This document shows, piece by piece, positions 31,951 through 55,110 of a stretch of 64,000 nucleotides of DNA. Every line of letters starts with the position of its first letter. Positions within the stretch are counted from its first letter, which is position 1. A program made the position numbers and the translations under genes. Where the stretch lies: NCBI RefSeq assembly GCF_035917995.1, contig NZ_CP109131.1:7440001-7504000 (forward strand), read 5' to 3'. A model generated the notes under the pieces. It was given only the letters and a program-made list of their open reading frames with translations. It was not told the DNA's origin and did not search any database. The DNA comes from Streptosporangium sp. NBC_01755. GTDB lineage: Bacteria; Actinomycetota; Actinomycetes; Streptosporangiales; Streptosporangiaceae.

Positions 31951-32949
31951 TCACTCCTCCTCTTCCTCGTCTTCGAAGATCTCGTCGACCACCTCGGCGG
32001 CCACGTAGCCGCCGACCAGGCCGGCCGCGCCGGCGGCCACCACCGCGCCCATTCCCGGACCACCGCGCTGCTCGTAGTGGCCGTGGTGGGAGTCGTGGTG
32101 ACCACCCTGGTGGGCGTACGGGTCGTGGCCGCCGTAGTGGCCGCCGTAGTGGCCGCCGTCATGACCGCCGTAATGGGGCCGCTGGGACAGCGCGGCCAGC
32201 CAGCCGTTGATCTCAGCGGCCCAGTCGCGGTACGCGGCCTGGTCGTGACCGGTCTGCCAGCGGCCGAAGGCGTCGGTGCCGGATCCATGGTGGCCGCTGC
32301 GCTTGTCGGCCTCCACGATGATGTCCAGTCCGCCGGGGCCGGTGATGAAGGTCAGCTCGACCTCGTTGATCTGCCCGGAGTAGGCGGGTGGCGGGTAGAA
32401 CTCGATCTCCTGGTAGAACGGCAGCCGCTGGCTCACGCCGTGGATGTGGCCATGCTCCAGGTCGGCGCTCTTGAAGTGGAAGCCGAGCTGGGAGAACGCC
32501 CGCAGGAACGCCTCCTGGGAGGCCAGCGGCTCGATCTCGACCGGATCCATGTCGCCCTTGTCGACCGCCGCGGCGATCGCCAGCTCGGTGCGCACTCCCA
32601 TGCCCATGCCGTGCAGGTGCTGCCCGGCGATCTCGGTGATCGGCGCCTCCCAGGGGACCGGGAACTGGAAGGGGACGGTCTTGTCCTCTCCGCTGCGCAA
32701 CCGGAACGGTCCAGAGACCTGTGTACGGTGAAGTTCCATCAGGCCGATCTGCTCACCCTCGCCGTGCTCGGATTCCACCCGGGTGACCAGTCCAAGCGCG
32801 ATGTACTCGATGTCGGCGTCGAAGTCGCCGCCCTTGATCCTTACCTCGCCGCGTAGCAGCCCGCCGGGTTGCACGCGTGGGGTGGACAGGACGGTGTCCA
32901 CCGACGGGGCCCCGACACCGAAGGCTCCCAGCATCCGTTTGAAGATCAC
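31951..32949 (-). CDS. Spo0M (sporulation-control)-like arrestin-fold protein with a His/Gly-rich tail
   Basis: 332 aa. Residues 1-235 match the SpoOM family: MLGAFGVGAPSVDTVL, then QPGGLLRGEVRIKGGD and LVTRVESEHGEG, two beta-sandwich layers. The C-terminus adds a region of HYGGHDGGHYGGHYGGHDP-like repeats with more than 15 His, a short hydrophobic GMGAVVAAGAAGLVGGYVA segment and an acidic EDEEEEE end. Spo0M proteins influence sporulation and cell division in Bacillus and actinomycetes; the His-rich part may bind Ni, Zn or Cu. GTG 32949 is chosen since AGAGGA lies 5 nt upstream. Confidence 0.88.
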   Translation of the reverse strand: MIFKRMLGAFGVGAPSVDTVLSTPRVQPGGLLRGEVRIKGGDFDADIEYIALGLVTRVESEHGEGEQIGLMELHRTQVSGPFRLRSGEDKTVPFQFPVPWEAPITEIAGQHLHGMGMGVRTELAIAAAVDKGDMDPVEIEPLASQEAFLRAFSQLGFHFKSADLEHGHIHGVSQRLPFYQEIEFYPPPAYSGQINEVELTFITGPGGLDIIVEADKRSGHHGSGTDAFGRWQTGHDQAAYRDWAAEINGWLAALSQRPHYGGHDGGHYGGHYGGHDPYAHQGGHHDSHHGHYEQRGGPGMGAVVAAGAAGLVGGYVAAEVVDEIFEDEEEEE

Positions 32950-33031
32950 GGCTTCCTCTCCTGCTTGTCGTTGAACCTGACCGAAGAGCAAACGATCACA
33001 GGGGGGGCGGGGTTCCCGACCCCTGACGCCG

Positions 33032-34883
33032 TCAGGCGGCGAAGCCGGTGATGTCGCGGTCGTGGTGGCGGTGGACGGCGATCGCCTCGATGAGGCCGTC
33101 GTCTCCGCTGACCACCCCCTGGGAGCCGGGGAGCGCCGCCGCCTCCAGCAGCGTCGCGCCCGAGCCGACCGCGCCGATGGCCTTACCGTGTTTGAAAGCC
33201 TCCCTGACGAAGTGGACGGCGTTCCCGACGGCGGACAGGGCCGCGCCGTCGGTCAGCAGGACCGCGTCGTAGAGCACCGAGGAGACCATCCCCAAAGAAC
33301 GGTCCACGCTCAGCGGTCCGGTCTGGCCCTCGTGCGGCGCCAGCACCTCGCAGATCGCTCCCCGGTCTTCGAGCGCCTGCCGCACCGGGTTCAGGGCGTC
33401 CGCGTCGCCTCCGTCGGCCGCCAGGATCGCGACCTTGCGGGTGGCGATACCGGCCGGCGGCTGGGCGGGCGGCCTGGCTCAGCGCGGGAGAGGCCAGGTC
33501 ATGACCGTCCTGGGCCGGCGGGACCGGCAGGCCCAGCCCCTGGGCCACCCGAGTGGCCAGGTCCGCGTGGACACCGGCGAGCTGGGCGAGGACGCCTTCC
33601 CTGACGGGCTTGCGCCGCACATGGCCCAGCTCGAACAGGAAGGCCGCGACGATGTGGTCGCGCTCCCAGCCCGACATGCTGTTCCAGAACATCCTGGCCT
33701 GGCCGTGGTGGTCGGCGAAGCTGGGACTGCGCTCGCGGATCTTCTGCCCGTCCACCCGTTCCTGGTAGTGGACGTAGCCGTCCCCGGCCATGGGACAGCC
33801 GCCGCTGATCGAGTTGATCGAGTAACTGGTGCGGGAGGTGTGGATGACGTCCTGGTGGTAACCGTCGCGCTGGTCGTTGTTCACCGTGACCACAGGCCGG
33901 TTGACCGGGATCTGCGCGAAGTTGGGGCCACCGAGCCTGATGAGCTGCGTGTCGAGATAGGAGAACAGCCTGGCCTGCAGCAGCGGGTCGTTGGTGAAGT
34001 CGATGCCCGGCACCACGTTGGCCACGTGGAAGGCGACCTGCTCGGTCTCGGCGAAGAAGTTGTCGGGGTTGCGGTCGAGCACCAGCGTGCCCACCGGGCG
34101 CAGCGGCACCACCTCCTCCGGGATGATCTTCGTCGCGTCCAGCAGGTCGAAGTCGAACTTGTGCTCCCGCTCCTCGGGCACGAGCTGCACGGCCAGCTCC
34201 CAGCGCGCCGGGGTACCGGCCTCGATCGTGTCCCACAGGTCACGCCGGTTGAAGTCGGGGTCGTTGCCCTGCAGGCGCAGCACCTCGTCCCACACCAGCG
34301 AGTGGGTGCCGAGCTCGGGCCGCCAGTGGAACTTGACGAACGTACCGTACCCTTCGGCGTTGACCAGCCGGAAGGTGTGCACTCCGAAGCCCTGCGTCAT
34401 CCGGTAGCTGCGCGGGATGGCCCGATCACTCATCAGCCACATGACCATGTGCAGTGTCTCCGGCTGGAGCTGGACGAAGTCCCAGAACGTGTCGTGGGCC
34501 GACTGCGCCTGCGGGATCTCGTTGTGCGGCTCGGGCTTGACCGCGTGCACGAAGTCGGGGAACTTGATGCCGTCCTGGATGAAGAAGACGGGGAAGTTGT
34601 TGCCGACCAGGTCGAAGTTGCCCTGCTCGGTGTAGAACTTGGTCGCGAAACCGCGCACGTCCCGCACCGTGTCGGCCGAGCCGCGTGAGCCCGCCACCGT
34701 GGAGAACCTGACGAACACCGGCGTCGTGAGCGAGGTGTCGCACAGAAAACGCGCCGAGGTGAACTCCTGCGGCTCTTCGCCGTTTCCTCGCTTGACATAT
34801 CCGTACTCCTGAGCGGCCGACCACTGGACAATCACCTGTTGCCCGGCCGCCGGGTGGATATACGCGCTGCTCAGCCTGGCCAC
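33032..34883 (-). pseudogene. katE: Large-subunit catalase (HPII/KatE type), frameshifted and N-terminally altered
   Basis: The haem catalase core is clear: [40 protein letters not shown] and the haem-Tyr segment [20 protein letters not shown]. The C-terminal flavodoxin-like domain ([34 protein letters not shown]) is in another frame from about 33460 down, so a one-base shift lies in the linker. The N-terminus has [16 protein letters not shown] where catalases carry the catalytic His (VHARGSAAHGYF), and nothing equivalent is found in other frames upstream. So the enzyme is probably inactive. Full HPII proteins have about 700 residues. Confidence 0.85.
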
Positions 34884-34978
34884 GGTAAGGGAATGGGCCG
34901 ATTTTCCCCGGGGAACGGCTCTGGCGGGGCGGAGGTGTCGCCCGCCGGTTCAGCGGCGGGCGAATGTCCTTCCGGCCG

Positions 34979-35431
34979 TCAGCGGGCGTGCTGGATGCGC
35001 CGTCCGGTGATCTCGCTGGGGATGATCCTGAGATAGAGCTCGCGGTCGCCGCCCGCCCAGGGCTGGACTCCCGAGGCGGATGCCTCGGCCTGCTCGTCGG
35101 CGGAGACATGGTGGGCGCCACCCCGGATGAGCACGCTCCATCCTTCGCGGGCGGTCTCGTCGATCCGATCGATCTCGAATGCGATCTTGAACTCGACGCC
35201 CCGGACGCCGGTGCGCAGGTTGCTGTCGAGGGGACCTCCGACAGCGGTGCGGACGATCACCGAGTTGTCGTGCAGTACGTAGTTGACCGGCAGGATCGTC
35301 AGTCCCGCGGGCTCTTCGAAGGCCACCCTGCCGACACCACCGGGAGCGATCAGCCGCAGGCACTCGTCGGCCTGCAGTTTCTCCAGGTGGGCGGGGGCGG
35401 GGTCGCCCGGGGTCGTCATATGTTCGGTCAT
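34979..35431 (-). CDS. Pyridoxamine-phosphate-oxidase-like split-barrel flavin protein, copy 1
   Basis: 150 aa. The fold is shown by ADECLRLIAPGGVGRVAFEE, GLTILPVNYVLHDNSVIVRT and GWSVLIRGGAHHVS, the pattern of actinobacterial PPOX proteins that bind FMN or F420. ATG 35431 has AGGAG 8 nt upstream. A paralogue lies at 52797-53216 under a DosR-box-like site. The 318-nt gap upstream, shared with the CBS/Acg operon, holds palindromes of the same kind, so stress co-regulation is likely. Confidence 0.88.
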   Translation of the reverse strand: MTEHMTTPGDPAPAHLEKLQADECLRLIAPGGVGRVAFEEPAGLTILPVNYVLHDNSVIVRTAVGGPLDSNLRTGVRGVEFKIAFEIDRIDETAREGWSVLIRGGAHHVSADEQAEASASGVQPWAGGDRELYLRIIPSEITGRRIQHAR

Positions 35432-35606
35432 CAAAATCTCCTGTGAGAACAAAACGATCAAAGGTTTGGCATCGTCGCACGCCGGGCGTCGTCAATCCGA
35501 CCGTGTACGGGCTCCGCGGGTTCTTCGGCCACCGCCCCTCTCCCCTTCCGAAGGGAAAACAGTACCCGGTGGGGCAGCGGGCCGCCTCGGGCCGAACCAC
35601 CCTCGC

Positions 35607-35621: not shown

Positions 35622-35657
35622 CAGCCGGTGTTCCACCACGGGCGGGGTACGAAGACG

Positions 35658-35671
35658 GGGCCGGAAGTCCC
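35658..35671. promoter_or_regulatory. Candidate DosR-type box GGGCCGGAAGTCCC
   Basis: Fits GGGAC-N4-GTCCC with one mismatch, 79 nt upstream of the USP remnant/CBS genes. Part of a set of similar sites in this island. Confidence 0.5.
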
Positions 35672-35749
35672 AGGTGGGCGGGTCTTTCGGCCGCTGCGGA
35701 GAACGGGGGGGAAGCGGTCTGATGGGGGGAGAGGCGCAAGGGGGAGAAG

Positions 35750-35854
35750 ATGACAGCGCAGGTAGTGGCGGGCACGGAAGGCTCACCTTCCGCATGGGCC
35801 GCCGATGAGGCCATGCCGGGTTCGATGACGTGCCACACCCGGGGTGAGGCGTGA
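35750..35854 (+). pseudogene. Universal stress protein N-terminal remnant coupled to the CBS gene
   Basis: 34 codons: MTAQVVAGTEGSPSAWAADE matches the start of USP-domain proteins (V.G.DGSxxAxxA), then the sequence becomes unrelated and stops. GGGGGAGAAG is a good ribosome site, and its TGA overlaps the next ATG (TGATG). So a degraded USP gene now acts as a translated leader that hands ribosomes to the CBS protein. Confidence 0.65.
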
Positions 35855-36360
35855 TGGACGTGCAAAACCTCACGGTGGCGCGGGTGATGAGCCGGACGCT
35901 GGTCGTCGTCGAACCCGATGAGTCCCCGCTCATGGCCTGGGAGATCATGCGTCGCGCGGGTGTCCACCACCTGCCGGTCGTCGACCGGAACGGCTGCCTG
36001 CGCGGTGTTCTCACCTGGGAGGATCTCGCCGCCCGCTGGTCCGGCGGCCCGGCCGAGCAGTCACGCGCGCGAGTCCGCTCGCTGCTGGCCGAGCACCGCT
36101 GCCCGCACACCACCCTCGACGCGCGCCTGACCGACGCGGCGGCGGCCATGATCGGCGCCGGTGTCGACGCGATCCCCGTTCTGGGGGAGTCCAACAGGCT
36201 GGTGGGCATGGTGACCTCCACCGACGTGCTGCGGGCCGTGGCCGGCCGGATCACCGAAGAGGAGGGGCCGCCGGAGCTGATGACGGGAATGTTCCGTCTG
36301 GTCCCCGTCCTGCCCCGGTCCCGCGGGGCCGACGATCCCTTTACCCGTGACGGAGGCTGA
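35854..36360 (+). CDS. Tandem CBS-domain protein (hypoxic-response-protein type)
   Basis: 168 aa made of two CBS motifs: VARVMSRTLVVVEPDESPLM and LPVVDRNGCLRGVLTWEDLA, then a second pair ending DAIPVLGESNRLVGMVTSTD VL. Stand-alone CBS pairs bind adenine nucleotides and, in mycobacteria, Hrp1 of this type belongs to the DosR regulon. ATG 35854 is supported by the TGATG overlap with the upstream mini-ORF. The Acg-like gene follows after 3 nt. Confidence 0.9.
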   Translation: MDVQNLTVARVMSRTLVVVEPDESPLMAWEIMRRAGVHHLPVVDRNGCLRGVLTWEDLAARWSGGPAEQSRARVRSLLAEHRCPHTTLDARLTDAAAAMIGAGVDAIPVLGESNRLVGMVTSTDVLRAVAGRITEEEGPPELMTGMFRLVPVLPRSRGADDPFTRDGG

Positions 36361-36363: not shown

Positions 36364-37365
36364 ATGAGCGCTCACACCACCGAGGAGATCACCTCGGCGA
36401 TCCGTACGGCGGTCGGGGCCGCCGTGTGGGCACCATCGGTGCACAACACTCAACCGTGGTCCTTCTCCATCGACGGTGAGGAGATCGCTCTGCGGGCCGA
36501 CAGTGACAGGAGACTACGGCTCGGCGATCCCGAGGGCCGGGAAATGCTGATCAGTTGCGGTGCCGCCCTGATGAACGTGCGGCTCGCGCTGCGCAGGTTC
36601 GGCCGCGAACCGCAGGTGCGCGTGCTGCCCGACCCCGACCGTCCCGCTCTGCTGGCGACGGTACGGGTGGGGGCGGCCGTCGCCCCGGACGAGCACACCC
36701 GGTTGCTGCACGCCGAGATCGAACGCCGCCGCACCCACCGCGCCGGATTCACCGAGGTGCCCGTGGCGGACCGCCTCGTCGAGGCGTTCGTCTGCCAGGC
36801 GAGTGCCGAGGGGGCACGGCTGACGCCGGTCAGGTCCAAGGCCGCCGTCCGGGTGCTCGCCGCGCTCACCTGCGCCGCCGAGGACGTGCAGTCCCAGGAC
36901 CGGCTGCTCACCCTGGAGATGATCCGCTGGGCCCAGCCGCCGGGAAGCCCCCGCAAAGACGGGGTTTCGGCGCAGGGCTACCCGCGCGAGCCCAGGCGGA
37001 CCCATCCGCACTTCGCCCAGCGCGACTACACCCACGGTCACTCCTGGGGCAGCGACACCGACCAGTTCCTCTCCACATCCACCGGAACCGTGGCGGTGCT
37101 GACCACGCCGGGGGACTCCCGCGAGGACTGGGTCGCGGCGGGCCAGGCGCTGCAGCGTATCCTGCTGCACGCCTCCGCCTACGACATCAGCGCGGCCTTC
37201 CACACCCAGGCGCTGGAGATGTTCCACCTGCGGGAGTTCCTGCGGCAGGAACTGCTGTCCGGCGAGTACCCCCAGATGATCATGCGCCTGGGTTTCACCT
37301 CCGACGAGAGCGAGGGCGTCCGGCGGCCGGTCACCGATGTGCTGGAAGAACGCGGGCCGGGCTGA
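36364..37365 (+). CDS. Acg-like nitroreductase-fold protein
   Basis: 333 aa. AVWAPSVHNTQPWSFSIDGE is the diagnostic start of the Acg (Rv2032/Rv3131/Rv3127) family, followed by REMLISCGAALMNVRLALRR, ERRRTHRAGFTEVP and a second half-domain with TSTGTVAVLTTPGDSREDWV. In M. tuberculosis these proteins are strongly DosR-induced; they bind FMN in a lidded pocket and seem to sequester flavin. It directly follows the CBS gene, one transcript. Its presence supports a dormancy-type regulon here. Confidence 0.93.
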   Translation: MSAHTTEEITSAIRTAVGAAVWAPSVHNTQPWSFSIDGEEIALRADSDRRLRLGDPEGREMLISCGAALMNVRLALRRFGREPQVRVLPDPDRPALLATVRVGAAVAPDEHTRLLHAEIERRRTHRAGFTEVPVADRLVEAFVCQASAEGARLTPVRSKAAVRVLAALTCAAEDVQSQDRLLTLEMIRWAQPPGSPRKDGVSAQGYPREPRRTHPHFAQRDYTHGHSWGSDTDQFLSTSTGTVAVLTTPGDSREDWVAAGQALQRILLHASAYDISAAFHTQALEMFHLREFLRQELLSGEYPQMIMRLGFTSDESEGVRRPVTDVLEERGPG

Positions 37366-37406: not shown

Positions 37407-38057
37407 TCACGGCTCGATCAGGCCCGCGCGGATGGCGTACCGGGTGAGGTCGAGCCGGTCGCGCATGCCGAGTTTCTGCAGGATGTTGGCCCGGTGCCGG
37501 TCGACCGTCTTCACGCTGATGAACAGGGTCTCGGCGATCTGCTTGGCCGAGTTGCCCTCGGCGATCAGTTTGACGATCTCCTCCTCGCGCGGGGTCAGGA
37601 TGCTCTCCGGCATCGCCTCTCCCAGCCTGTCGCGCTGCAGGTAGTGCCGGATCAGGGCGGTGACGGCGCCCGGGTACAGGAACGGCTCGCCGCGCATCGC
37701 CGCCCTGCACGCCTCCAGCAGGTCGCGGTCGGCCACCGACTTCAGCACGTACCCAGAGGCCCCCGCCTTGAGCGCCTCGAAGAAGTACTGCTCGTTGTCG
37801 TACATCGACAGGATCAGCAGCCGGATGCCGGGCGCGCGCCGCGAGATCTCACGGGCCGCCTGCAGGCCGGTCATCCGCGGCATCGCGATGTCGAGGATCG
37901 CCAGGTCGACCGCCTCGGGTACGGCGGCCTCCACCGCCTCGGCGCCGTTGGCCGCCTCGGCCACCACGATGAGGTCGGGCTCGGCGTCCAGGATCAGCCG
38001 CAGCCCGCGGCGGACCAGGGCGTGGTCGTCGGCCAGCAGGATCCTCGTGGGGTTCAT
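37407..38057 (-). CDS. NarL/FixJ-family response regulator
   Basis: 216 aa. Receiver domain with acidic pair D10/D11 and phospho-acceptor D56 in DLAILDIAMP; C-terminal LuxR-type helix-turn-helix LTPREEEIVKLIAEGNSAKQ and SVKTVDRHRANILQKLGMRD. The ATG overlaps the kinase stop by 4 nt, so sensor and regulator are made together. Distinct from the DosR-like regulator at 44259. The target genes are unknown; the adjacent KhtT-like/CBS/antiporter operon is a candidate. Confidence 0.95.
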   Translation of the reverse strand: MNPTRILLADDHALVRRGLRLILDAEPDLIVVAEAANGAEAVEAAVPEAVDLAILDIAMPRMTGLQAAREISRRAPGIRLLILSMYDNEQYFFEALKAGASGYVLKSVADRDLLEACRAAMRGEPFLYPGAVTALIRHYLQRDRLGEAMPESILTPREEEIVKLIAEGNSAKQIAETLFISVKTVDRHRANILQKLGMRDRLDLTRYAIRAGLIEP

Positions 38058-39055
38058 CGGCTTCCCTGCCTGTTCTCGGCCGGTACGGTGAGCCGGACGT
38101 CGGTGCCGCCGCCCTGCGGAGAGGTCACGCTCAGGCGGGCGCCGATGAGCATGGCGCGCTCGCGCATCCCGCGGATCCCAGCCCCGTCCTGACGCACGCC
38201 ACCGCGGCCGTTGTCGGTGATGCGCAACTCCAGGCCGCTGGGCTCCGCTGTCAGGGCCAGTTCGACCCGGGAGGCGCAGGCGTGCCTGGCCGCGTTGGTC
38301 AGGCCCTCCTGGGCGATGCGGTAAAGGACCAGCTCGACGTCCTCGCTCAGCGAGGGCAGGTCTGGATCGACCCTGCGGGTCACGGGAACGCCGCTGCTCT
38401 GGGAGAAGTCGCTGCTCAGCGCGCTGAGGGCGCTCTGCAGGCCAAGGTCCTCCAGTACTCCTGGACGCAGGCGGCGGGCGACCTGCCCCACCTCGTCCAG
38501 GCTCGCGCGGACGCTCTCCTGCACCCCGCGCAACTCCTCGCGTAGATCGTCGGGTGCGCGGTCGGCGGCGTGTTTGAGGCTCAGCAGGACCACGGTGAGG
38601 CTCTGGCCGATCTCGTCGTGCAACTCGCGGGCGATGCGCCGTCGCTCGCCTTCCTGCGCGGCCAGGGCGTGGGCGCTGCTGGCGCTGTGCTCGGCCTCCA
38701 GCCGGTCCAGCATCGCGTTGAACGTGTCGATCAGGTGGGTCAGGTCGCCGTTGCCGTTGCTGGGCAGCCGGTCCAGCGGATGCAGCAGGTTCACCCGCTG
38801 CATCAGGGTCGTGAGCGCGTCGAGCGGGGCCAGGCTGGTGCGCAGGAGCAGCGCGTTGGCGGCCAGTATCAGCGCCAGGCCGACCGTCAGCACCGGGATC
38901 TCGGTCAGCAGCACCGGCGAGGACACGGTGGCGGGGGAGAGGGCGAGCACCAGCGTGCCGACCGTGAAGACCAGCCCGTTGATCGCGAACAGGCGTTTGA
39001 ACAGGATGCGCACCGGACTGCGCGCTCCTGCCGTCTTGTCGGGGCGCTCGCTCAT
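38054..39055 (-). CDS. Membrane sensor histidine kinase (HisKA_3, NarX/LiaS-like)
   Basis: 333 aa. Two membrane helices (about residues 22-42 and 48-70) with almost no extracytoplasmic loop, a HAMP-like linker, phospho-acceptor His146 in RRRIARELHDEIGQSL, and a HATPase domain with DNGRGG and GIRGMRERAMLIGA. The tiny loop suggests it senses a membrane or internal signal. ATG 39055 has GGGAGG 9 nt upstream; ATG 39091 is an alternative. Upstream gene of the two-gene kinase/regulator operon. Confidence 0.92.
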   Translation of the reverse strand: MSERPDKTAGARSPVRILFKRLFAINGLVFTVGTLVLALSPATVSSPVLLTEIPVLTVGLALILAANALLLRTSLAPLDALTTLMQRVNLLHPLDRLPSNGNGDLTHLIDTFNAMLDRLEAEHSASSAHALAAQEGERRRIARELHDEIGQSLTVVLLSLKHAADRAPDDLREELRGVQESVRASLDEVGQVARRLRPGVLEDLGLQSALSALSSDFSQSSGVPVTRRVDPDLPSLSEDVELVLYRIAQEGLTNAARHACASRVELALTAEPSGLELRITDNGRGGVRQDGAGIRGMRERAMLIGARLSVTSPQGGGTDVRLTVPAENRQGSR

Positions 39056-39306
39056 CTCATCAGCCTCCCGGTCGCCGAACGGCCTGTCCATGGGGGGCGT
39101 CTCCCATCTTTCCGCGTCGCTTCTGCATGTTCCACCCCTGATCAGATGGGTGCCGGCCCCGATGGTGGCAGGGGGACGGCGCCGATGGGATGGAGGGGCG
39201 GCGGACACCAACAGGGGCGAGGTGCGACTCCAGGAGGACCTGATCCGCCGGGCGGAACGCCTCGCCTCGTGACCGCGGCTTCGAGTGGAAGGGAGTGACC
39301 ACCGAT

Positions 39307-47414: not shown

Positions 47415-48266
47415 ATGACCGAATCGATCACTGTCGGAACGGATGGCTCGGCTGCCGCCGCAGTGGCCCTGGAATGGGCGGTCGACGACGCCGTCCGCAG
47501 GGGGGTGTCCCTGAGGATCGTGCACGCCATGGACCGCTGGCCATCCGACCTGGTCGAGTTCCCCCTGCCGGGGCGGCCCGGCCGGCTGGCGCGCTTCGGC
47601 GAACAGGTGCTCACCGAAGCGGCCAAGGCGGCGACGGAACGGGGGCCGGATGTCCGGGTGACCACCGAGCTGATCGAGGGAACGCCGTCCGAGGTTCTGT
47701 GCGGGCAGGCGGAAACGGCGGTCGAACTGGTGGTCGGCAGTCGCGGCCTGGGCGGTTTCGCCGGGTCGCCGCTCGGCTCGGTCCCCGTCCGGGTGGCGGG
47801 TCACGTACCCGGCGCCGTGGTGGTCGTCAGGCGGGGTTTCGCCGAGGCGCACGGTGAGGTGGTCGTGGGCGTCGACGGTTCCACCGAGTGCGAACCCGCT
47901 CTCGGGTTCGCCTTCGAGCAGGCCGCGTTACGCGGCTGCGGGTTGCGCGCGGTCTACGCCTGGCAGGCGGGCGGGGACACCGATGAGATCCGGCGGGCAC
48001 AGCGCCGGGTGGCCGAGGACCGGCTCGCCGGCTGGCGGGAACGGTTCCCCGCCGTCGAGGTCGTCCCGGATGTGACGCGCGCGCGCCCGGTGCCGACACT
48101 GCTGGCCGCCTCGGCGCGGGCGGACCTGCTCGTCGTGGGCTCTCGCGGTCTCGGCGCCGTCGGAGCGATCCTGCTGGGATCGGTCAGCCGTGAGATTCTC
48201 CACCATGCTCGCTGTCCTGTGGCGGTTGTCGGATCAACGTCCGGTGACCGGCGGTTTCGGGGGTAG
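47415..48266 (+). CDS. Tandem universal stress protein, copy 2
   Basis: 283 aa, two USP domains. Domain 1 has [20 protein letters not shown] and the loop [20 protein letters not shown], where Pro replaces a usual Leu; domain 2 has [20 protein letters not shown] and a complete ATP loop [23 protein letters not shown] 47415 with GGGGGAAAG upstream. First of three same-strand USP genes, each with its own upstream region, and preceded by the strongest regulator-box cluster of the window. Confidence 0.93.
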
Positions 48267-48280
48267 GAGACCTTCAACGG

Positions 48281-48304
48281 CTCTGGCCGCAGGGGCGGCC
48301 AGAG
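48281..48304 (+). terminator. Hairpin between USP copies 2 and 3
   Basis: CTCTGGCCGC-AGGG-GCGGCCAGAG, perfect 10-bp stem with a 4-nt loop, 15 nt after the stop. No T-run, but it may attenuate or protect the transcript ends between the two USP genes. Confidence 0.6.
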
Positions 48305-48322
48305 GTTCGAAAGGGGAATATT

Positions 48323-49189
48323 GTGATCTTGGTGGGAGTCGACGGCTCGCAGGCCGCGCTTGAGGCCGTGAGCTGGGCCGTACGGGAGGCCCGGCTACGC
48401 GGTGCCGAGTTGCGCGTGGTGCACGCCATGGTGGCCTGGCCGTTGGAGATGACCGAGGACGCCCCGTACGCCGACGTGGGCCGGTGGATGCGCGATGGGG
48501 CCATGTCCATGCTGACGGACGCGCTGGACCGGGCCCGCGAGAAGGACGGGCGTGTCAAGGTGGAGCCGCTGCTGCTGCCGGGCGACCCCAGGGACGTCCT
48601 GATCGAGGCCGCGAAGGACGCCGACCTCCTGGTGGTCGGCAGTCACGGGCGGGACGGTTTCTCCGGCATGCTGCTGGGATCGGTCGCGCTGGGCGTGACC
48701 GGACACAGCGCCTGCCCGGTCGCCGTCATCCGGAAGGCGCCCGAGCGGTCACACGCCGGGGTGGGCGAGGTGGTCGTCGGAGTCGACGGCTCCGCGGCAG
48801 GTGCGTCCGCCATCGAGTTCGCCTTCGCCGAGGCATCCCTGCGCGGCGCCGGCCTGCGGGCGGTGCACGCTTGGAACCGGCCCGTCGGTGGGCCGTTCCA
48901 GGCGTCTGCCGAGGAGACGGCCGAGGGCGAGCGGCGACTGCTGGCCGAGGCGCTGGCGGGCCGGGGCGAGCGTCATCCGGATGTCAAGGTCACCGAGCAG
49001 GTGGAGCGCGGGCATCCGGTGGAGGTTCTGAAGAACGCCTCGGCACACGCCGACCTGCTGGTCGTGGGGTCACGCGGCCGCGGGAACCTGGCGGGGCTGC
49101 TGCTGGGCTCGGTCAGCCACTCGCTGCTGCAGCACGCCGCCTGCCCGCTGGTCGTGACACCCGCCACGGCGGCACCCCGGCGCGCCTGA
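48323..49189 (+). CDS. Tandem universal stress protein, copy 3
   Basis: 288 aa. Domain 1: MILVGVDGSQAALEAVSWAV and loop GSHGRDGFSGMLLGSVALGV; domain 2: [20 protein letters not shown] and loop GSRGRGNLAGLLLGSVSHSL. Both ATP loops (GxxGx9GS) are complete. GTG 48323, weak ribosome site AAAGGGG. Only 56 nt separate it from copy 2, containing a hairpin, so partial read-through is likely. Confidence 0.93.
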   Translation: MILVGVDGSQAALEAVSWAVREARLRGAELRVVHAMVAWPLEMTEDAPYADVGRWMRDGAMSMLTDALDRAREKDGRVKVEPLLLPGDPRDVLIEAAKDADLLVVGSHGRDGFSGMLLGSVALGVTGHSACPVAVIRKAPERSHAGVGEVVVGVDGSAAGASAIEFAFAEASLRGAGLRAVHAWNRPVGGPFQASAEETAEGERRLLAEALAGRGERHPDVKVTEQVERGHPVEVLKNASAHADLLVVGSRGRGNLAGLLLGSVSHSLLQHAACPLVVTPATAAPRRA

Positions 49190-49205
49190 TCGGACAGCCG
49201 TTGAC

Positions 49206-49269
49206 GGCTGTATCCGCCCGCCGGCGGCGAGCGACAAGGCTGTATCCGCCCGCCGGCGGCGAGCGACAA
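49206..49269. repeat. Perfect 32-bp tandem duplication
   Basis: Copies at 49206-49237 and 49238-49269, each beginning GGCTGTATCCGCCCGCCGGC. Lies in the gap between USP copies 3 and 4; internally GCCCGCCGGCGGC can form a hairpin. Confidence 0.95.
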
Positions 49270-49400
49270 CGGCACGATGCGGTGGTTCCCTGGCATCGGG
49301 GCAGGAAGACGGGGTTTCACCCCCCGGTGTCTTTGATGTCGGAACGCCGGCCGGTTCCGTCGCGGAGTGACGAAAGGCCCTGCCATCACGTGGGCCGGTA

Positions 49401-49414
49401 GGGACTTCCGGCCC
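49401..49414 (+). promoter_or_regulatory. Candidate DosR-type box GGGACTTCCGGCCC
   Basis: GGGAC-N4-GGCCC, one mismatch to GTCCC, 47 nt upstream of USP copy 4. Confidence 0.5.
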
Positions 49415-49461
49415 TGGGGCCGCAGGTTTGACGGAGGTCGGATAGGAGAGAAGGAGGACTT

Positions 49462-50313
49462 ATGTCTAGTCTGATCATCGTTGGGGCCGACGGTTCCACC
49501 ACCGCGACCGCTGCCATCCAGTGGGCGGCCGACGACGCCGCCCGCATGGGCCTGCCGTTGCGCATCGTCACCGCCGTGCAGCGCTGGCCGAACGACATCC
49601 CCAAGTTCCCCGCTCCCGAGTGGGAGGACGCGGTGACCGAGTCCGCCCAGAAGGTGCTGGCCGCCGCGGAGGAGACGGCCCGCTCCGGGCAACCTGCCAT
49701 CGAGGTGACCACCGCGCTGGTCGAGGGACCGCCGGCGCTGGTCCTGCGCGAGCAGGAAAAGGACGCCACGGAGATCGTCGTCGGGACCAGAGGCCTCGGC
49801 GGGTTCGCCGGAGCCGTGATCGGCTCGGTCGGCATCCACGTCGCCGGTCATGTGCGCTGCCCGGTCGTCGTCGTCCGTCCCGGCCAGACCGGGGTACACG
49901 GCGAGATCACGGTCGGCCTCGACGACTCCGACGCCTGCGAGCCCGCCCTCGCCTACGCCTTCGAGCAGGCCAGGCTGCGCGGCAGCACCCTGCGCGCCCT
50001 CTACGCCTGGCAGGTGCCCGTGCACATCTACGCCCCGGAGATCGTCTATGACATGGACGAGTTCCGCGCCGCCCATCACCGGGTCGTGACGGACCGGCTC
50101 GCCGCGTGGCGAGAGAGGTACCCCGGGGTGAAGGTGATCGAGGACGTGCGCCGCGCCCACCCGGTCGAGGCGCTCAGCGACGCCTCCGATACCTGTGACC
50201 TGATCGTCGTCGGCTCCCACGGCCGCGGCGCCCTCGGCTCGCTGTTCCTGGGCTCGGTCAGCCGGGGCGTTCTGCATCACGCCCGCTGCTCCGTCGCCGT
50301 CGTCAGGTCGTAG
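49462..50313 (+). CDS. Tandem universal stress protein, copy 4
   Basis: 283 aa. Domain 1: LIIVGADGSTTATAAIQWAA, loop [20 protein letters not shown]; domain 2: EITVGLDDSDACEPALAYAF (the usual DGS is DDS), loop GSHGRGALGSLFLGSVSRGV. Closest to copy 2 in architecture and spacing. AGGAGG precedes ATG 49462. Followed after 164 nt by the DoxX gene. Confidence 0.93.
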   Translation: MSSLIIVGADGSTTATAAIQWAADDAARMGLPLRIVTAVQRWPNDIPKFPAPEWEDAVTESAQKVLAAAEETARSGQPAIEVTTALVEGPPALVLREQEKDATEIVVGTRGLGGFAGAVIGSVGIHVAGHVRCPVVVVRPGQTGVHGEITVGLDDSDACEPALAYAFEQARLRGSTLRALYAWQVPVHIYAPEIVYDMDEFRAAHHRVVTDRLAAWRERYPGVKVIEDVRRAHPVEALSDASDTCDLIVVGSHGRGALGSLFLGSVSRGVLHHARCSVAVVRS

Positions 50314-50345
50314 CCGGATACGACCGGGGCATCCCCGTGCCGGAT

Positions 50346-50359
50346 AGGCCGAAGGTCCC
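50346..50359 (+). promoter_or_regulatory. Weak candidate box AGGCCGAAGGTCCC upstream of DoxX
   Basis: Only the right half matches GTCCC fully. A second small palindrome CGGGG-CAT-CCCCG lies just upstream. Assigned mainly because of position in the island. Confidence 0.3.
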
Positions 50360-50477
50360 ATGAACGCGATGACTTTCGCAGCCCGGGCGCGAGCCGTACG
50401 GCACTGCGGAGCGGCCCCGGAAAACGATGTGATGGAGACACCACAGAGACCGCGAAACACTACCGAAAGGGGCCGTC

Positions 50478-51032
50478 ATGGCCACCAGGCACGGTCGGGA
50501 CGTTCCCTCCAAGCAGTCCGTCCCGAACGTCACCCCTCCGGCGGCGACACGCCCGGTCGACTACGTCTGGGCGATCGCGCGCATCTCCATCGGATGGATC
50601 TTCCTGTGGGCGTTCCTCGACAAGACCTTCGGCTGGGGGTTCGCCACCCCCGCCGACCGCGCCTGGATCTCCGGCGGCAGCCCCACGACCGGGTTCCTCA
50701 AGGGCACCGGTGAGAACGCCCTCGGCGGCCTCTTCTCCGGCCTGGCCGGTCAGGCCTGGGTGGACTGGCTGTTCATGCTCGGCCTGCTCGGGGTCGGCGT
50801 CGCCCTCATCCTGGGGGCCGGCATGCGGATCGCCGCCGTCGCCGGGGGCCTGATGCTGATCCTGATGTGGGCCGCCGCTCTGCCCCTGACCACCAACCCG
50901 TTCATGGACGATCACATCGTCTACATCGTCGTGCTCGCCGGGCTGGCGATGGCGGGCGCCGGCGACACCCTCGGCATCGGCAGGTGGTGGAGCAACACCT
51001 CCCTGGTGCGGAACTACCCCGTCCTGCGCTAA
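50478..51032 (+). CDS. DoxX-family membrane protein
   Basis: 184 aa with four membrane helices; ARISIGWIFLWAFLDKTFGW and GLAGQAWVDWLFMLGLLGVG are typical of DoxX/DoxD-like proteins, and the helix-4 end reads YIVVLAGLAMAGAGDTLGIG. In mycobacteria a DoxX protein works with superoxide dismutase and thiosulfate transferase in redox homeostasis; DoxD belongs to thiosulfate:quinone oxidoreductase. In this island it likely contributes to membrane redox defence. Followed by a strong terminator. Confidence 0.88.
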   Translation: MATRHGRDVPSKQSVPNVTPPAATRPVDYVWAIARISIGWIFLWAFLDKTFGWGFATPADRAWISGGSPTTGFLKGTGENALGGLFSGLAGQAWVDWLFMLGLLGVGVALILGAGMRIAAVAGGLMLILMWAAALPLTTNPFMDDHIVYIVVLAGLAMAGAGDTLGIGRWWSNTSLVRNYPVLR

Positions 51033-51102: not shown

Positions 51103-52800
51103 ATGGCAGACACGGACTCCCATTCCCTGCTTCCGAACATGCGGCTGGACGAGCTGCTGTCGGAGCTGCAACTCCGGCTCGAAGCGGTACTCGCCACCCG
51201 CGACCGCGTACACGCCCTGCTCGAGGCGGTCGTGGCGGTCGGCAGCGACCTCGACCTGGAGACGGTGCTGCGCCGCATCGTCGAGACCGCGACCAGGCTG
51301 GTGGACGCCGGCTTCGGCGCGATGGGAGTGGTCGGCCAGGAGAACACGCTGGTGCAGTTCATTCCGGTGGGGCTCAGCGAGGAGGAGATCGCCAGGATCG
51401 AGCACTGGCCGCACGGGCTCGGCCTGCTCGGTTTGCTGATCAAGGAGCCGCGACCGCTGCGCCTGACGCGCATCTCCGACCATCCCGAGTCCTACGGCTT
51501 CCCTCCGGGCCATCCCCCCATGGGCTCCTTCCTCGGTGTGCCGGTCCGGGTGCGCGACGAGGTGTTCGGCAATCTTTACCTCACCGAGAAGCGCGGCGGC
51601 GGCGAGTTCGACGAGGAGGACCAGGCGATCGTCGTCGCGCTGGCCACCGCGGCCGGTGTGGCGATCGAGAACGCCCGCCTGTTCGAGGAGACCCGCCGCA
51701 GGGAGACGTGGCTGGCCGCGTCATCGGAGATCACCACCAGCCTGCTGTCCGGCGCGGACCCCCGGGAGGTCCTCACCCTGATGGCCGGGCACGCCCGTCA
51801 GATGACCGACGCGGACGTCGTGGCGATCCTGCTGCCGGAGGCGAACGGGCAGGTGCTGCGGGTGGCGATCGCCGACGGCGAGAACGCCGGGCAGCTGGAA
51901 CAGGTGGAGATCCAGACCGCGGGATCCCTGGCCGGACGGGCCTTCGCCGACGGCGAGCCTTTCATGGTCAACGATCCGGACGAGACCGGACTGCGGAGCG
52001 TGTTCTCCGACCATCTGCCGATGGGCCCGGTGGGGGCCGTCCCGCTGGGCGCGGCGGGCGTCGCGCGCGGCGTGCTGTCACTCGGCAAGCGTTCGGGCCG
52101 CACCCCGTTCGTCCAGTCGGAGCTGCGTACCCTGCACGCCTTCGCAGCGCAGGCGGCGGTGGCACTGGAGCTGGCCGAGAGCCGCAAGGACGCCGAACGG
52201 CTGGGCCTGCTCGAAGACCGCGACCGCATCGCCAAGGACCTGCACGACGTGGTCATCCAGCGGCTGTTCGCCATCGCCATGACGCTGATGAGCACGGTCA
52301 GGCTGGTCGAGAGACCAGAGGCCTCCAGCCGCCTGAAAGGCGCCATCGACGAGCTTGACGAGACCATCCGCCAGATCCGCTCCACCATCTTCGCCCTCCA
52401 GACGCCCAGCGGGGACAGCGCCCCCAGCCTGCGCACCCGCATCGTCGAGATGGTGGAAGGCGCCCGTGGCCACCTGGGCTTCATGCCCGGCCTGCGAATG
52501 GACGGGCAGCTCGACAACCGCGTGCCGCCCGAGATCGCCGACCACCTGCTCGCGGTGTTGCGCGAGGCCCTGTCCAACGCGGTACGGCACGCCAAGGCAG
52601 GGAGGATCGACGTCTCCGTCGAGGCGCTGGACGACCGGCTCACCCTCGTCGTGCGGGACGACGGTATCGGGCTGGCCGGCGACGGCAGGCGCAGCGGCCT
52701 GCGGAACCTGCAGGAGCGGGCGGCCCGGCTCGGCGGCTCCTTCGAGATCATCTCGCCGGAGGCGGGGGGCACCAGGCTGAGCTGGAGCGTGCCGCTCTAG
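51103..52800 (+). CDS. DevS/DosS-like GAF-GAF sensor histidine kinase, copy 2
   Basis: 565 aa, collinear with the kinase at 42546 residue for residue in the first 190 positions. The putative haem ligand is His137 (PPGHPPMGSFLGVPVRVRDE) and the phospho-acceptor is His381 (RIAKDLHDVVIQRLFA). The ATPase domain includes REALSNAVRHAKAGRIDVSV and GLRNLQERAARLGG. Two such kinases with one regulator mirror DosS and DosT of M. tuberculosis, which differ in signal. No regulator gene is adjacent. It ends with a 4-nt overlap onto the convergent PPOX gene. Confidence 0.93.
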   Translation: MADTDSHSLLPNMRLDELLSELQLRLEAVLATRDRVHALLEAVVAVGSDLDLETVLRRIVETATRLVDAGFGAMGVVGQENTLVQFIPVGLSEEEIARIEHWPHGLGLLGLLIKEPRPLRLTRISDHPESYGFPPGHPPMGSFLGVPVRVRDEVFGNLYLTEKRGGGEFDEEDQAIVVALATAAGVAIENARLFEETRRRETWLAASSEITTSLLSGADPREVLTLMAGHARQMTDADVVAILLPEANGQVLRVAIADGENAGQLEQVEIQTAGSLAGRAFADGEPFMVNDPDETGLRSVFSDHLPMGPVGAVPLGAAGVARGVLSLGKRSGRTPFVQSELRTLHAFAAQAAVALELAESRKDAERLGLLEDRDRIAKDLHDVVIQRLFAIAMTLMSTVRLVERPEASSRLKGAIDELDETIRQIRSTIFALQTPSGDSAPSLRTRIVEMVEGARGHLGFMPGLRMDGQLDNRVPPEIADHLLAVLREALSNAVRHAKAGRIDVSVEALDDRLTLVVRDDGIGLAGDGRRSGLRNLQERAARLGGSFEIISPEAGGTRLSWSVPL

Positions 52801-53216
52801 TCGACGGGCCTGGAGGAGATGCGGCGGCCGGTAAGGTGCCCCGTCTGCACCAGGATGTAGTGGTCCCGGCTTGCCGGCGCCCAGGCGGTCAGGGGTAGCC
52901 GGGCCAGGCGCTCGATCTCCTGCGACTCGTACACGGCTCGGGCGGGCCCCACCGCGGTGACCGACCAGCCGGTGCGCGCCGAAGAATCGAAGTCGTCGGC
53001 CTCGAAGGCGACGATCGCGTCGCGGGCCGCCGCGGCGAGCTTGGAATCGATGGTGGTGCGGATCACCACGGTCTCGCCGTCGAGGACGAAGTTGACCGGC
53101 TGTACGGCCGGAAGGGCACGGTCGGTGAACACGATCCGTCCGATCGAGACCGAGCCCAGGAGTTCGAGGCACTCCGGCCGGGAAAGCACTTCAAGGCCTG
53201 CCGAGTCGAGCTTCAT
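52797..53216 (-). CDS. Pyridoxamine-phosphate-oxidase-like split-barrel flavin protein, copy 2
   Basis: 139 aa. LSRPECLELLGSVSIGRIVF, ALPAVQPVNFVLDGETVVIR and GWSVTAVGPARAVYES follow the same fold as the protein at 34979. Small PPOX proteins of this kind bind FMN or F420 and are often part of redox-stress regulons; a few are DosR-regulated in mycobacteria. ATG 53216; the best DosR-box match of the window lies 37 nt upstream. Confidence 0.88.
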   Translation of the reverse strand: MKLDSAGLEVLSRPECLELLGSVSIGRIVFTDRALPAVQPVNFVLDGETVVIRTTIDSKLAAAARDAIVAFEADDFDSSARTGWSVTAVGPARAVYESQEIERLARLPLTAWAPASRDHYILVQTGHLTGRRISSRPVD

Positions 53217-53252
53217 GCCTTCAGGCTGCCCGTCGGCGCACCAGGGACGTTA

Positions 53253-53266
53253 GGGGCTAAAGTCCC
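53253..53266 (-). promoter_or_regulatory. DosR-type box GGGGCTAAAGTCCC, best match in the window
   Basis: With flanks it reads TTAGGGGCTAAAGTCCCG, matching the mycobacterial DosR consensus GGGACTWWAGTCCC with a single A-to-G change, and including the AT pair at the centre. It sits 37 nt upstream of the PPOX copy 2 start. The gap to 53781 also holds GGGGCCTTCAGCCC at 53562-53575 before the phosphoribosyltransferase gene, and no other gene. Confidence 0.75.
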
Positions 53267-53781
53267 GTCATTGGCGGTGTTCGGCCTTCCGGGGGACAGC
53301 GGTAGGCGTCGCCGTCTTGGTGCTCTTGCCCCCGGGCTACCGGGGCTCCTGCCGATGTGATGATCGTGACCATGGCCGAGATCGAGAGAGGCCGAGCTCG
53401 CGGCTCCTCGCCGTACCTGGCAGGTACGGTTCAGGCCGCGCCGTCGGCCTGGCCTCGCAGGGGGCTCCCTCACTGTTCAGCCGCCGGCCCCGGTAGCGGA
53501 CGGGACGACGATTGAAATGGGGGCGTCCGGCCGGTTGTTCCCTTATATGGGGTTCTGAATCGGGGCCTTCAGCCCTACCGCCAGGATGCCCTGGTGGCTG
53601 ACATTGGGGGTTGAGGGGTGAAGACTCGCCGTCGTCGGCTGTGAGGAGGCCGCGGCGACCGATGAGCGGCCGGTTGCCCGGCGGAGCCGGGCGCGGGCAT
53701 CGACGCCGTTTTCGGCCGCGCGCCGCGATCTCGAAGCTCCGCCGGTGAGCGGAGGTGTGCAGAGTGCCGGAAGGGGGTGGC

Positions 53782-55110
53782 GTGGTGTTCGCCGATCGTC
53801 AGGATGCCGGCGTACGGCTGGCCGAGCGGTTACGCGGGCTCGCCGGCGCCGAGGAAGTGGTCGTTCTGGGCCTGCCCAGGGGCGGCGTGCCGGTGGCGTT
53901 CGAGATCGCCCGGGCCCTTGGCGCTCCGCTGGATGTGATCGTGGTCCGCAAGCTCGGGGTGCCGTTCCAGCCGGAGCTCGGGTTCGGCGCCGTGGGAGAG
54001 GGCGGGATACGCGTCGTCAACCAGGACATCGTACGGCTCGCGCAGCTCACCTACGAGGAGACGGCCGAGGTGGAGGAGCGCCAGCGGGCCGAGGTCCTGC
54101 GCCGGGCGAGCCGGCTGCGCGGCGACCGCGCCCCGGCGGACCTGACGGGCCGCACGGCGATCGTGGTGGACGACGGGGTGGCCACCGGCGGGACGGCGCG
54201 TGTCGCCTGCCAGGCCGCTCGGGCGCGCGGTGCCTCACGGGTGGTGCTGGCGGTGCCGGTGGGGACACCGGACACGATCGAGAGCCTTCGCGAGGTCGCC
54301 GACGAGGTGGTCTGCCTGCGGACACCGGAGCACCTTCTGGCGGTCGGCGCCTGGTATGTCGATTTCGCCCAGACCACCGATGAGCAGGTGGCCTCGTTGC
54401 TCCGCAGGGCCGCGCCCGGGGTGGGGGAGCCCGACGAGAGCACGGCGTCCAATCCACCCTGCCTCGACGAGGAGGTTCTGGTGGACGCCGGGCGGGTCAG
54501 GTTGCCCGGTCAGCTCGTCCTCCCGGGCGGCGCCAGTGGAGTGGTGGTGTTCGTGCACGGCAGCGGCAGCAGCCGGCACAGCCCGCGTAACCGGCATGTG
54601 GCCGCCGTGCTCAACGACGCGGGTCTGGGGACGCTGCTGTTCGACCTGCTCACCCCGGAGGAGGGATACGACAGGGGCAACGTGTTCGACATCGGGCTGC
54701 TGGCCGAAAGGCTCATCCGGGTGACCGCCTGGCTGGGCGATCAACCCTGGGCGGCGGGCGTCCCCGTCGGTTATTTCGGGGCGAGCACCGGAGCCGCGGC
54801 CGCGCTGTGGGCGGCGGCGGAGCCGGGCTGCGAGGTCGCCGCCATCGTCTCCCGGGGCGGACGGCCCGATCTGGCCTGGCCTCGGCTGACCGAGGTGCGG
54901 GCGGCGACCCTGCTGATCGTGGGAGGTGACGACAGGGTGGTGCTCGACCTCAACCGGGCGGCACGGGGACGGTTACACGGTGAGAGCATGCTCCGGATCA
55001 TCACCGGCGCCACACATCTGTTCGAAGAGCCGGGGGCGCTCGAGCGCGTCGCCGTCCTGGCCCGCGACTGGTTCACCGGTCACTTCGGTAGCGATCAGAG
55101 CGACCTTTGA
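53782..55110 (+). CDS. Phosphoribosyltransferase-alpha/beta hydrolase fusion protein (Rv0571c-like)
   Basis: 442 aa. Residues 1-210 are a type-I phosphoribosyltransferase with LGLPRGGVPVAFEIARALGA and the PRPP loop AIVVDDGVATGGTA; residues 230-440 are a dienelactone-hydrolase-like fold with FVHGSGSSRHSPRN, nucleophile in GYFGASTGAAA, VGGDDRVV and late His in ATHLFEEPG. M. tuberculosis Rv0571c, of the DosR regulon, has the same domain pair and length. GTG 53782 is chosen after AGGGGG; the frame is open to GTG 53755. Weak box-like palindromes lie upstream. Confidence 0.88.
   Translation: MVFADRQDAGVRLAERLRGLAGAEEVVVLGLPRGGVPVAFEIARALGAPLDVIVVRKLGVPFQPELGFGAVGEGGIRVVNQDIVRLAQLTYEETAEVEERQRAEVLRRASRLRGDRAPADLTGRTAIVVDDGVATGGTARVACQAARARGASRVVLAVPVGTPDTIESLREVADEVVCLRTPEHLLAVGAWYVDFAQTTDEQVASLLRRAAPGVGEPDESTASNPPCLDEEVLVDAGRVRLPGQLVLPGGASGVVVFVHGSGSSRHSPRNRHVAAVLNDAGLGTLLFDLLTPEEGYDRGNVFDIGLLAERLIRVTAWLGDQPWAAGVPVGYFGASTGAAAALWAAAEPGCEVAAIVSRGGRPDLAWPRLTEVRAATLLIVGGDDRVVLDLNRAARGRLHGESMLRIITGATHLFEEPGALERVAVLARDWFTGHFGSDQSDL

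Follow-up and report, generated by a model that had tools for sequence, protein, structure and literature searches.

Two described systems come closest to the locus considered here, and in one of them, that of Mycobacterium tuberculosis, the genes of the DosR regulon are scattered. An Rv3134c-devR-devS operon is named for that species in a reference title in PMC4082495. In Streptomyces coelicolor, the account of Urem et al. (2016; PMC5069765) places the DosR-type regulator OsdR and the kinase OsdK together with universal stress protein (USP), nitroreductase and PNPOx genes in the region SCO0167-SCO0219. Palindromes of 16 bp, AGGGCCGATCGGCCCT, are predicted upstream of genes in that system, and OsdR is reported to bind predicted palindromes in electrophoretic mobility shift assays (EMSA), for example before uspA, osdR and SCO0207/0208; osdR and osdK form an operon. 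The present analysis concerns a 64,000-nucleotide stretch, referred to as the window, that covers bases 7440001-7504000 of the 8.15-Mb single-contig genome of Streptosporangium sp. NBC_01755, and within it an island of genes (31951-55110) around a dosR-like regulator. This island is read, with a probability of about 0.85, as a DosR/OsdR-type two-component stress regulon. The grounds are the identities of the genes, the retention of residues for heme binding, phosphorylation and DNA contact, the enrichment of the motif and the conservation of promoters. A literature search joining DosR with Streptosporangium found no paper in the collection searched.

The likeness to the S. coelicolor region, as PMC5069765 describes it, extends to predicted upstream palindromes, several of them EMSA-tested there, and to a DosR-type regulator and a kinase of DevS/DosT type that share the region with USP, PNPOx and nitroreductase genes. 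The arrangement differs, since the first kinase gene of the window lies tail to tail with dosR, 12 bp away, the second follows a DoxX-like gene, and a GH65 gene precedes dosR. The likeness to the mycobacterial DosS-DosT/DosR system consists of a regulator with 60% identity and two GAF-GAF kinases. The mycobacterial regulon also has in common with the island an Acg-type oxidoreductase, USPs, a CBS pair, PNPOx proteins and a phosphoribosyltransferase-hydrolase. Unlike in Mycobacterium, the island's regulon genes are adjacent and both kinases have a DosT-type glycine. The locus is well supported as a new example of a known DosR-type system, whose kinase arrangement is unlike both described operons and common among relatives.

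The regulator is, as judged from its sequence, the orthologue of DosR/DevR/OsdR, in agreement with the DosR-like regulator of the original prediction. Its best PDB chain is M. tuberculosis DevR (3c3w; E=4e-82), with 278 bits vs 153 for the runner-up, a lead of 125 bits, and 127 of 212 residues are identical (60%). Residues D54, K104, K179, K182, N183, T198 and T205, taken here to be those of phosphorylation and DNA contact, are unchanged. Full-length paralogues in the same genome reach at most 41% identity, with one partial match (152-229) at 49%, and the protein of S. amethystogenes is 97% identical. A second NarL-type response regulator in the island (RR2, 37407-38057) was rejected as the island's DosR, scoring 135.6 bits against VraR and 118.8 bits against DevR.

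Pfam architecture and the best matches of the GAF-A domains bear out two DosS/DosT-like GAF kinases. In both, GAF-A matches DevS/DosT first, with 53-59% identity over 147 positions, and the kinases are 70% identical to each other. Both keep the heme-ligand histidine, the distal tyrosine and the phospho-acceptor histidine. In a comparison of 65 kinases, made up of these two and 63 relatives (bit score at least 120, alignment start at or before residue 150), the heme histidine is kept in 63, the distal tyrosine in 64 and the kinase histidine in 64, the misses being L091 and L141, which are gapped at these columns. The position of DosS Glu87 holds glycine, as in DosT, in 64 of the 65 and aspartate in L091. 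According to the review PMC4082495, the glycine of DosT accompanies a stable O2 complex, M. smegmatis DosS has been reported as DosT-like, and the role of Glu87 is disputed. By analogy, the glycine suggests DosT-like stable O2 binding in the window kinases.

A candidate binding site was learnt from other Streptosporangium species. Unsupervised palindromic expectation-maximization (EM), with symmetry imposed, was applied to 94 upstream regions (120 before near-duplicate removal) whose last 45 bases had been trimmed; neither the window's own genome nor S. amethystogenes contributed to them. It returned the palindrome caGGGaCGatCGtCCCtg, of DosR/OsdR type, at a log-likelihood of 220-222 with 250 seeds, vs 55-66 in five shuffled sets with 50 seeds each. 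When symmetry was not imposed in the last step, EM recovered the ribosome-binding site and start codon and no regulator site. The genus box is closer to the mycobacterial GGGACNNNNGTCCC form than the OsdR box is. In the island, its matrix finds 18 sites scoring at least 10 (2.37 expected), 9 at least 12 (0.69 expected) and 5 at least 14 (0.06 expected), vs 2, 0 and 0 in the rest of the window. Eight of the nine sites at 12 or above are intergenic and one (40015) lies inside a gene; palindromes with a DosR core had been predicted before several genes, and these nine sites bear this out.

An outside matrix, built from the 25 S. coelicolor OsdR sites in Table 1 of PMC5069765, also finds an excess in the island when 20 stretches of the window's genome, 400 kb in all, serve as background: 19 sites at least 8 vs 5.0 expected, 4 at least 12 vs 0.58 and 3 at least 14 vs 0.12. 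Its top island score of 18.2 was reached by none of 300 column-permuted palindromic matrices. The exact M. tuberculosis box, GGGACTWWAGTCCC, does not occur among the genome matches listed; with one mismatch, it occurs among them at a single place, 53253-53266, in the island. The IUPAC pattern GGGMCKNNMGKCCC gave no genome-wide enrichment (59 per strand vs 131 for the reversed control) and is too blunt a count to be of use.

Within the island, the sites were assigned to promoters by scoring the 300 bp upstream of 24 genes, three of them outside the island, against 20000 random 300-bp stretches; the gene starts were set by hand, including 47097 for GH65 (likely start 47094) and an ACG at 39100 for the HAMP kinase. 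Sites scoring at least 10 precede 11 of the 24 genes, divergent neighbours sharing sites (Table 1). The divergent promoter between GH65 and USP2 holds two pairs of boxes at a spacing of 22-23 bp, and the best scores there, before USP4 and before the second PNPOx gene (PNPOx b) were not equalled in the random stretches. The weaker sites, at PNPOx a/CBS pair, nitroreductase, the DoxX-like gene and dosR, have p values of 0.016-0.028, and with 24 tests one or two values near 0.02-0.03 are expected by chance. The site upstream of the antiporter (12.1, p=0.0066) falls inside the preceding gene. USP2 and USP3 likely form an operon, and both USP3 and kinase 2 may be transcribed together with the genes before them.

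As far as these sequences allow, DosR control is supported for GH65(-dosR), USP2-USP3, USP4 and one PNPOx gene, and weakly supported for the PRT-hydrolase (the phosphoribosyltransferase fusion), the DoxX-kinase pair, dosR and the CBS/nitroreductase genes. It is hardly supported for the antiporter set and not supported for Spo0M and the second two-component pair. Among the new regulon members that had been proposed, GH65 has a box and the DoxX-like gene a weak one, Spo0M and the KhtT-like and CBS genes have none, and the antiporter's site has the position described above. The positions of genes and boxes are collected in Table 1.

Table 1. Genes and predicted boxes of the island, in window coordinates (PNPOx, split-barrel flavin-type protein; ORF, open reading frame)
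Feature	Position	Strand	Remarks
Spo0M-family protein	31951-32991	-	Spo0M E=5e-83; no box
Catalase ORF	33183-34883		HPII match over positions 130-592 of 752 only
PNPOx-like protein (a)	34979-35461	-	Pyridox_ox_2 E=1e-27
Weaker boxes between PNPOx a and CBS pair	35587-35604; 35656-35673		Scores 11.1; 10.5
CBS-pair protein	35851-36360	+	Pfam
Weak box at CBS gene 3' end	36324-36341		Score 10.7; 40 bp before nitroreductase
Acg family FMN-binding oxidoreductase (Rv3131-type)	36364-37365	+	NF047509 E=8e-85, 285 bits, cut-off 199
Second NarL-type regulator (RR2)	37407-38057	-	Pfam; no box
HAMP histidine kinase beside RR2	38054-39211	-	Pfam; no box
KhtT-N-like protein	39295-39573	+	KhtT N-domain E=0.0015
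CBS protein of transporter set	39570-40079	+	Pfam
CitMHS/ArsB/NhaD-type transporter (antiporter)	40076-41362	+	Pfam, NCBIfam
USP1, two Usp domains	41486-42361	-	Divergent from kinase 1; no box
DosS/DosT-type sensor kinase 1, GAF-GAF-HisKA_3-HATPase	42546-44246	+	Pfam
DosR/DevR/OsdR-type response regulator, receiver and LuxR helix-turn-helix	44259-44900	-	ORF to 44969, likely ATG 44900
Weak box before dosR	44935-44952		Score 10.0, p=0.028 per 300 bp
GH65 glycosidase/phosphorylase	44992-47094	-	Pfam GH65N and GH65m; ORF to 47259
Boxes of GH65/USP2 divergent promoter	47268-47285; 47291-47308; 47330-47347; 47352-47369		Scores 17.5; 13.7; 13.5; 19.7
USP2, two Usp domains	47415-48266	+	Pfam; ATG 47415 set by hand
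USP3, two Usp domains	48323-49189	+	Pfam; no box of its own
Boxes before USP4	49365-49382; 49399-49416		Scores 14.8; 16.8
USP4, two Usp domains	49462-50313	+	Pfam
Weaker box before DoxX-kinase 2	50344-50361		Score 10.9, p=0.017 per 300 bp
DoxX-like membrane protein	50478-51032	+	DoxX E=0.0072 alone
DosS/DosT-type sensor kinase 2	51103-52800	+	Pfam; 70% identical to kinase 1
Split-barrel PNPOx-like flavin-type protein (b)	52797-53216	-	Pyridox_ox_2 E=8e-28
Box before PNPOx b	53251-53268		Score 16.7; holds the listed one-mismatch GGGACTWWAGTCCC match
Box before PRT-hydrolase	53560-53577		Score 13.1, p=0.0027
Phosphoribosyltransferase and alpha/beta-hydrolase fusion	53755-55110	+	Pfam; hydrolase part weak, below its cut-off

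The boxes of the GH65/USP2 promoter recur in relatives. Upstream of the relatives' island genes, an OsdR-matrix site scoring at least 8 is present in 57 of 135 regions, vs 6.1% of 4000 random 321-bp stretches. Sites of at least 10 by the same matrix occur before 9 of 10 USP2 genes, 16 of 38 USP4 genes, 3 of 11 USP1 genes and 2 of 5 PNPOx b genes, as well as before both DoxX-like genes (L135 and L137), 1 of 3 PRT-hydrolase genes and 1 of 19 USP3 genes. When the USP2 upstream regions of the window, S. amethystogenes and relatives are aligned (13 rows), the distal box stands out by eye as a conserved block in 7 of them and the proximal box in 11, with one or two bases differing in some. The other rows are probably non-orthologous promoters, or have neither box, as L181.

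Members of the system are likewise found across the genus. A strong DosR match is present in 15 of the 16 Streptosporangium genomes searched, the window's own included, and a GAF kinase in 15 of 16, with one to three matches each, some of them split pieces of one gene. Both kinases were found only in the window genome and G002 among the genus neighbourhoods examined; G002 and L019 (S. amethystogenes) carry the same gene set and were counted once. The remaining genome, G015, was tried as a natural dosR-minus control, with no DosR at E<=1e-70, and rejected, as pieces of dosR and kinase lie at its contig ends. Two N-terminal DosR fragments (C12:1-150 and C34:60400-60552), each 88% identical to the window DosR, sit at or near contig ends, and the C-terminal end of a kinase sits at a third; because of these positions the genes were probably cut by assembly gaps, and the fragments suggest either that this relative has dosR twice or that a repeat broke the assembly. 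This genome keeps an 18.2-scoring box before USP2 and a site of at least 8 in 4 of 8 of its upstream regions.

Several results weigh against so broad a regulon, and some limit the enrichment. Permuted OsdR matrices reached the observed counts at thresholds of 8, 9, 10 and 11 in 5, 15, 28 and 13 of 300 cases. In the whole window, 24 sites of at least 8 compare with a second-order Markov mean of 22, so that low-score enrichment is absent; at 12 or above, 5 sites compare with a mean of 1.8, and the top of 60 simulations was also 5. The signal is thus confined to the island and to sites of high score; the window as a whole does not carry it. Enrichment over background, the test attached to the original prediction, was thus found for the island and high scores and not for the whole window at low scores; a lack of enrichment upstream of these genes, which would have spoken against the prediction, was not the outcome. 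Shared ancestry adds to the fit of the genus motif, because it was learnt partly from orthologous promoters. The random 321-bp stretches, from the window's genome, consist largely of coding sequence and are not composition-matched to promoters, and the 135 regions are not independent, because 16 stretches were picked for USP matches and the same site returns in paralogues. No box of at least 10 lies in the 300 bp upstream of 13 of the 24 genes, including kinase 1, USP1 and Spo0M, with the catalase fragment, RR2, the HAMP kinase, the KhtT-like and CBS genes, USP3, kinase 2, CsoR, the metallo-beta-lactamase-rhodanese gene and TauE as the others. Relatives' sites of at least 10 number 0 of 12 for nitroreductase, 0 of 8 for the CBS pair, 0 of 9 for kinases, 0 of 4 for PNPOx a and 1 of 10 for dosR, and this near absence weakens both the wider regulon and autoregulation of dosR. 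Furthermore, the nitrate reductase (narGHJI2) and transporter families of the S. coelicolor region are not among the 30 genes scanned, 28505-61977, the rest of the genome not having been searched.

Such results give some weight to a second, less probable explanation, in which the island is a general stress-gene hot spot where USP, nitroreductase, CBS and PNPOx genes gather; DosR would control only a few of these, and other regulators would govern several neighbours that are mere passengers. Island content and gene order vary strongly between species. Among 80 related DosR loci, relatives found within the flank comprise a GAF kinase in 57, a USP in 37, PNPOx in 36, a nitroreductase in 20 and a CBS-pair protein in 4; at least one of the four stress families (USP, nitroreductase, PNPOx, CBS pair) is near 52 loci, at least two near 31 and none near 28, the last count speaking for this explanation. 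Those 52 loci, together with the S. coelicolor OsdR/OsdK region as a precedent published in PMC5069765, also mean that the island is not new in kind. The box-less genes, among them Spo0M, the RR2 pair, KhtT-like, CBS, USP1 and kinase 1, the lack of strong sites before the nitroreductase and CBS genes of relatives, and the second two-component pair inside the island point the same way. So do two genes at the left edge, one for a TniB/AAA_22-type ATPase and the other a catalase fragment that S. amethystogenes lacks. On the other side, it is the core families whose promoters hold the strongest boxes, and outside the island sites are no denser than background.

It is possible, if rather unlikely, that O2 is a minor input and that this DosR relative has been rewired to development (sporulation and aerial growth), in line with a proposal made for OsdR. 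In S. coelicolor, according to PMC5069765, OsdR binds upstream of ssgB and the whiE genes in vitro, and osdR deletion alters chaplin gene expression. The Spo0M-family gene of the island would fit this reading; against it, that gene has no box and the heme-binding residues are kept in both kinases. It is very improbable that DosR is incidental and that the palindromes serve a regulator such as RR2 or some other NarL-family protein: NarL-family regulators generally recognise similar palindromes and RR2 lies within the same island, but DosR keeps its DNA-contact residues, RR2 is nearer VraR than DevR and has no box of its own, and the box resembles DevR half-sites. It also resembles the OsdR consensus tested experimentally in the account of PMC5069765.

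The preferred reading, a DosR-type stress regulon, implies a sequence of events in which gas sensing, phosphotransfer, DNA binding, activation, operon structure and physiological role are all proposed steps. O2 would bind heme in GAF-A of both DosT-like kinases; as O2 falls, or as NO or CO replaces it, the kinases would autophosphorylate and pass the phosphate to DosR. Phosphorylated DosR would then bind paired GGGACNNNNGTCCC-type palindromes and activate the GH65(-dosR)/USP2-USP3 divergent promoter, USP4 and the PNPOx gene, probably also the PRT-hydrolase and the DoxX-kinase 2 genes, and possibly the CBS/nitroreductase genes. GH65 shares its strand with dosR and stops 22 bp short of the DosR ORF (91 bp short of the likely dosR ATG); the GH65 promoter may therefore serve dosR as well. 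GH65 and dosR perhaps form one operon, in which case there would be positive feedback. Hypoxia control of the island and a part in dormancy are putative as well. What had been predicted, a DosR-type island with DosR-type boxes, stands as to gene families and box enrichment; it is not new in kind, and several of the extra members proposed for it lack boxes.

What is new concerns the kinases, which are mostly tail to tail with dosR, have the DosT-type glycine near-universally and often follow a DoxX-like gene. The arrangement was tallied over 93 DosR loci, namely the 80 loci of the similarity search and 13 genus neighbourhoods; this is not an unbiased census, because loci were picked by similarity to the window DosR and flank lengths differ, and related species in it are not independent. 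A GAF kinase lies within the flank in 63 of the 93 and in none of the other 30, and 64 placements relative to dosR divide into 52 convergent, 7 divergent and 5 tandem. Within 200 bp of dosR, 36 of 38 placements are convergent, 20 of the 36 with gaps of at most 15 bp, overlaps included; the gaps of divergent pairs are overstated, being measured from alignment ends. A terminator-like hairpin lies on the plus strand at 44255-44271, in the gap between kinase 1 and dosR (2 in the scanned stretch vs 0.5 expected).

The DoxX-like gene lies 70 bp upstream of kinase 2, and the two probably form one operon. It occurs in 18 of the 93 loci, 16 of which have a GAF kinase, and in 10 of the 18 the kinase lies downstream on the same strand within 400 bp. 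The window protein scores 17.4 bits, below the curated Pfam DoxX cut-off of 23.6, and 12 of 14 members of its family match DoxX at E<=0.1 (best 7.8e-6). It is a tentative thought, with the odds against it, that Dos systems other than those of mycobacteria and Streptomyces usually have regulator and heme kinase tail to tail, 3' ends often touching or overlapping, and the kinase often after a gene for a conserved DoxX-like membrane protein, which may pass the redox state of the membrane on to an O2 sensor that is otherwise soluble; convergent 3' ends could also tie the levels of kinase and regulator together by overlap of their transcripts.

Of 13 Usp domain matches in the genome, 8 fall within the USP genes of the island. 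Three stand in tandem (47415-50313) and one apart, where four in tandem and a fifth remnant had been described; since all 8 island matches fall in the four two-domain genes, a fifth was not found. The GH65 protein, whose likely GTG start at 47094 was counted by hand, has as its best solved match PDB 9lb6, 'trehalose-6-phosphate hydrolase' (E=2e-127, residues 59-745 of 755); the likeness to 9lb6/9lb7 is one of sequence, and either a hydrolase or a phosphorylase activity may apply here. Rv2006/otsB1 of M. tuberculosis is taken to carry a GH65 part. It is listed among DosR-regulon antigens in PMC2442614, and GH65 as a DosR-regulon member is hardly new; the family, as PMC8537180 presents it, holds hydrolases and phosphorylases for trehalose, trehalose 6-phosphate and other alpha-glucosides.

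The wider inventory was drawn from a Pfam scan of 30 called genes, 28505 to 61977, with NCBIfam for the nitroreductase. The Acg-type nitroreductase expected from the sequence matches its NCBIfam family well above the cut-off, and the CBS pair, both split-barrel flavin-type proteins, Spo0M and GH65 were recovered by Pfam as named. For the proposed Rv0571c-like protein, Pfam finds the phosphoribosyltransferase and, below its cut-off, the hydrolase; the likeness to Rv0571c is presumed from architecture. The KhtT-like and DoxX assignments match their families weakly; in the former, the N-domain aligns and the RCK_C domain does not, in 92 residues vs 168 in the longer KhtT chain 7agv. The KhtT-N-like, CBS and transporter genes (39295-41362) are one apparent operon, and the transporter's best NCBIfam match is magnetosome MamN, at 203 bits vs a cut-off of 500.

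Some genes were not part of the original prediction, including the catalase ORF and the second NarL-type regulator/HAMP-kinase pair (37407-39211). The ends of the catalase ORF are missing or out of frame, because its HPII match is partial; it sits in a stretch of about 1.9 kb (33019-34929), which is an insertion here or a loss there, S. amethystogenes having about 27 bp at the same point. The TniB/AAA_22-type ATPase gene at the left edge (30145-30828) is of a type known from some transposition systems. To the right, 55660-58977 holds a CsoR/CstR-type repressor, a metallo-beta-lactamase-rhodanese fusion and a TauE exporter, kept in S. amethystogenes and without a DosR box, a set here likened to a persulfide-response operon; at 59609-61977 a YCII-domain protein adjoins an extracytoplasmic function (ECF) sigma factor with DUF6596. 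An Rfam scan of the window returned no family at its gathering score.

The DosR-type regulon is hereby extended to Streptosporangium, for which a box and a small set of targets are predicted. The conserved paired GH65/USP2 boxes and two DosT-like kinases would offer an environmental, pathogen-free host in which DosR promoter architecture and the role of Glu87 versus glycine may be studied. The tail-to-tail kinases and the DoxX-kinase gene pair are leads on the evolution of these sensors.

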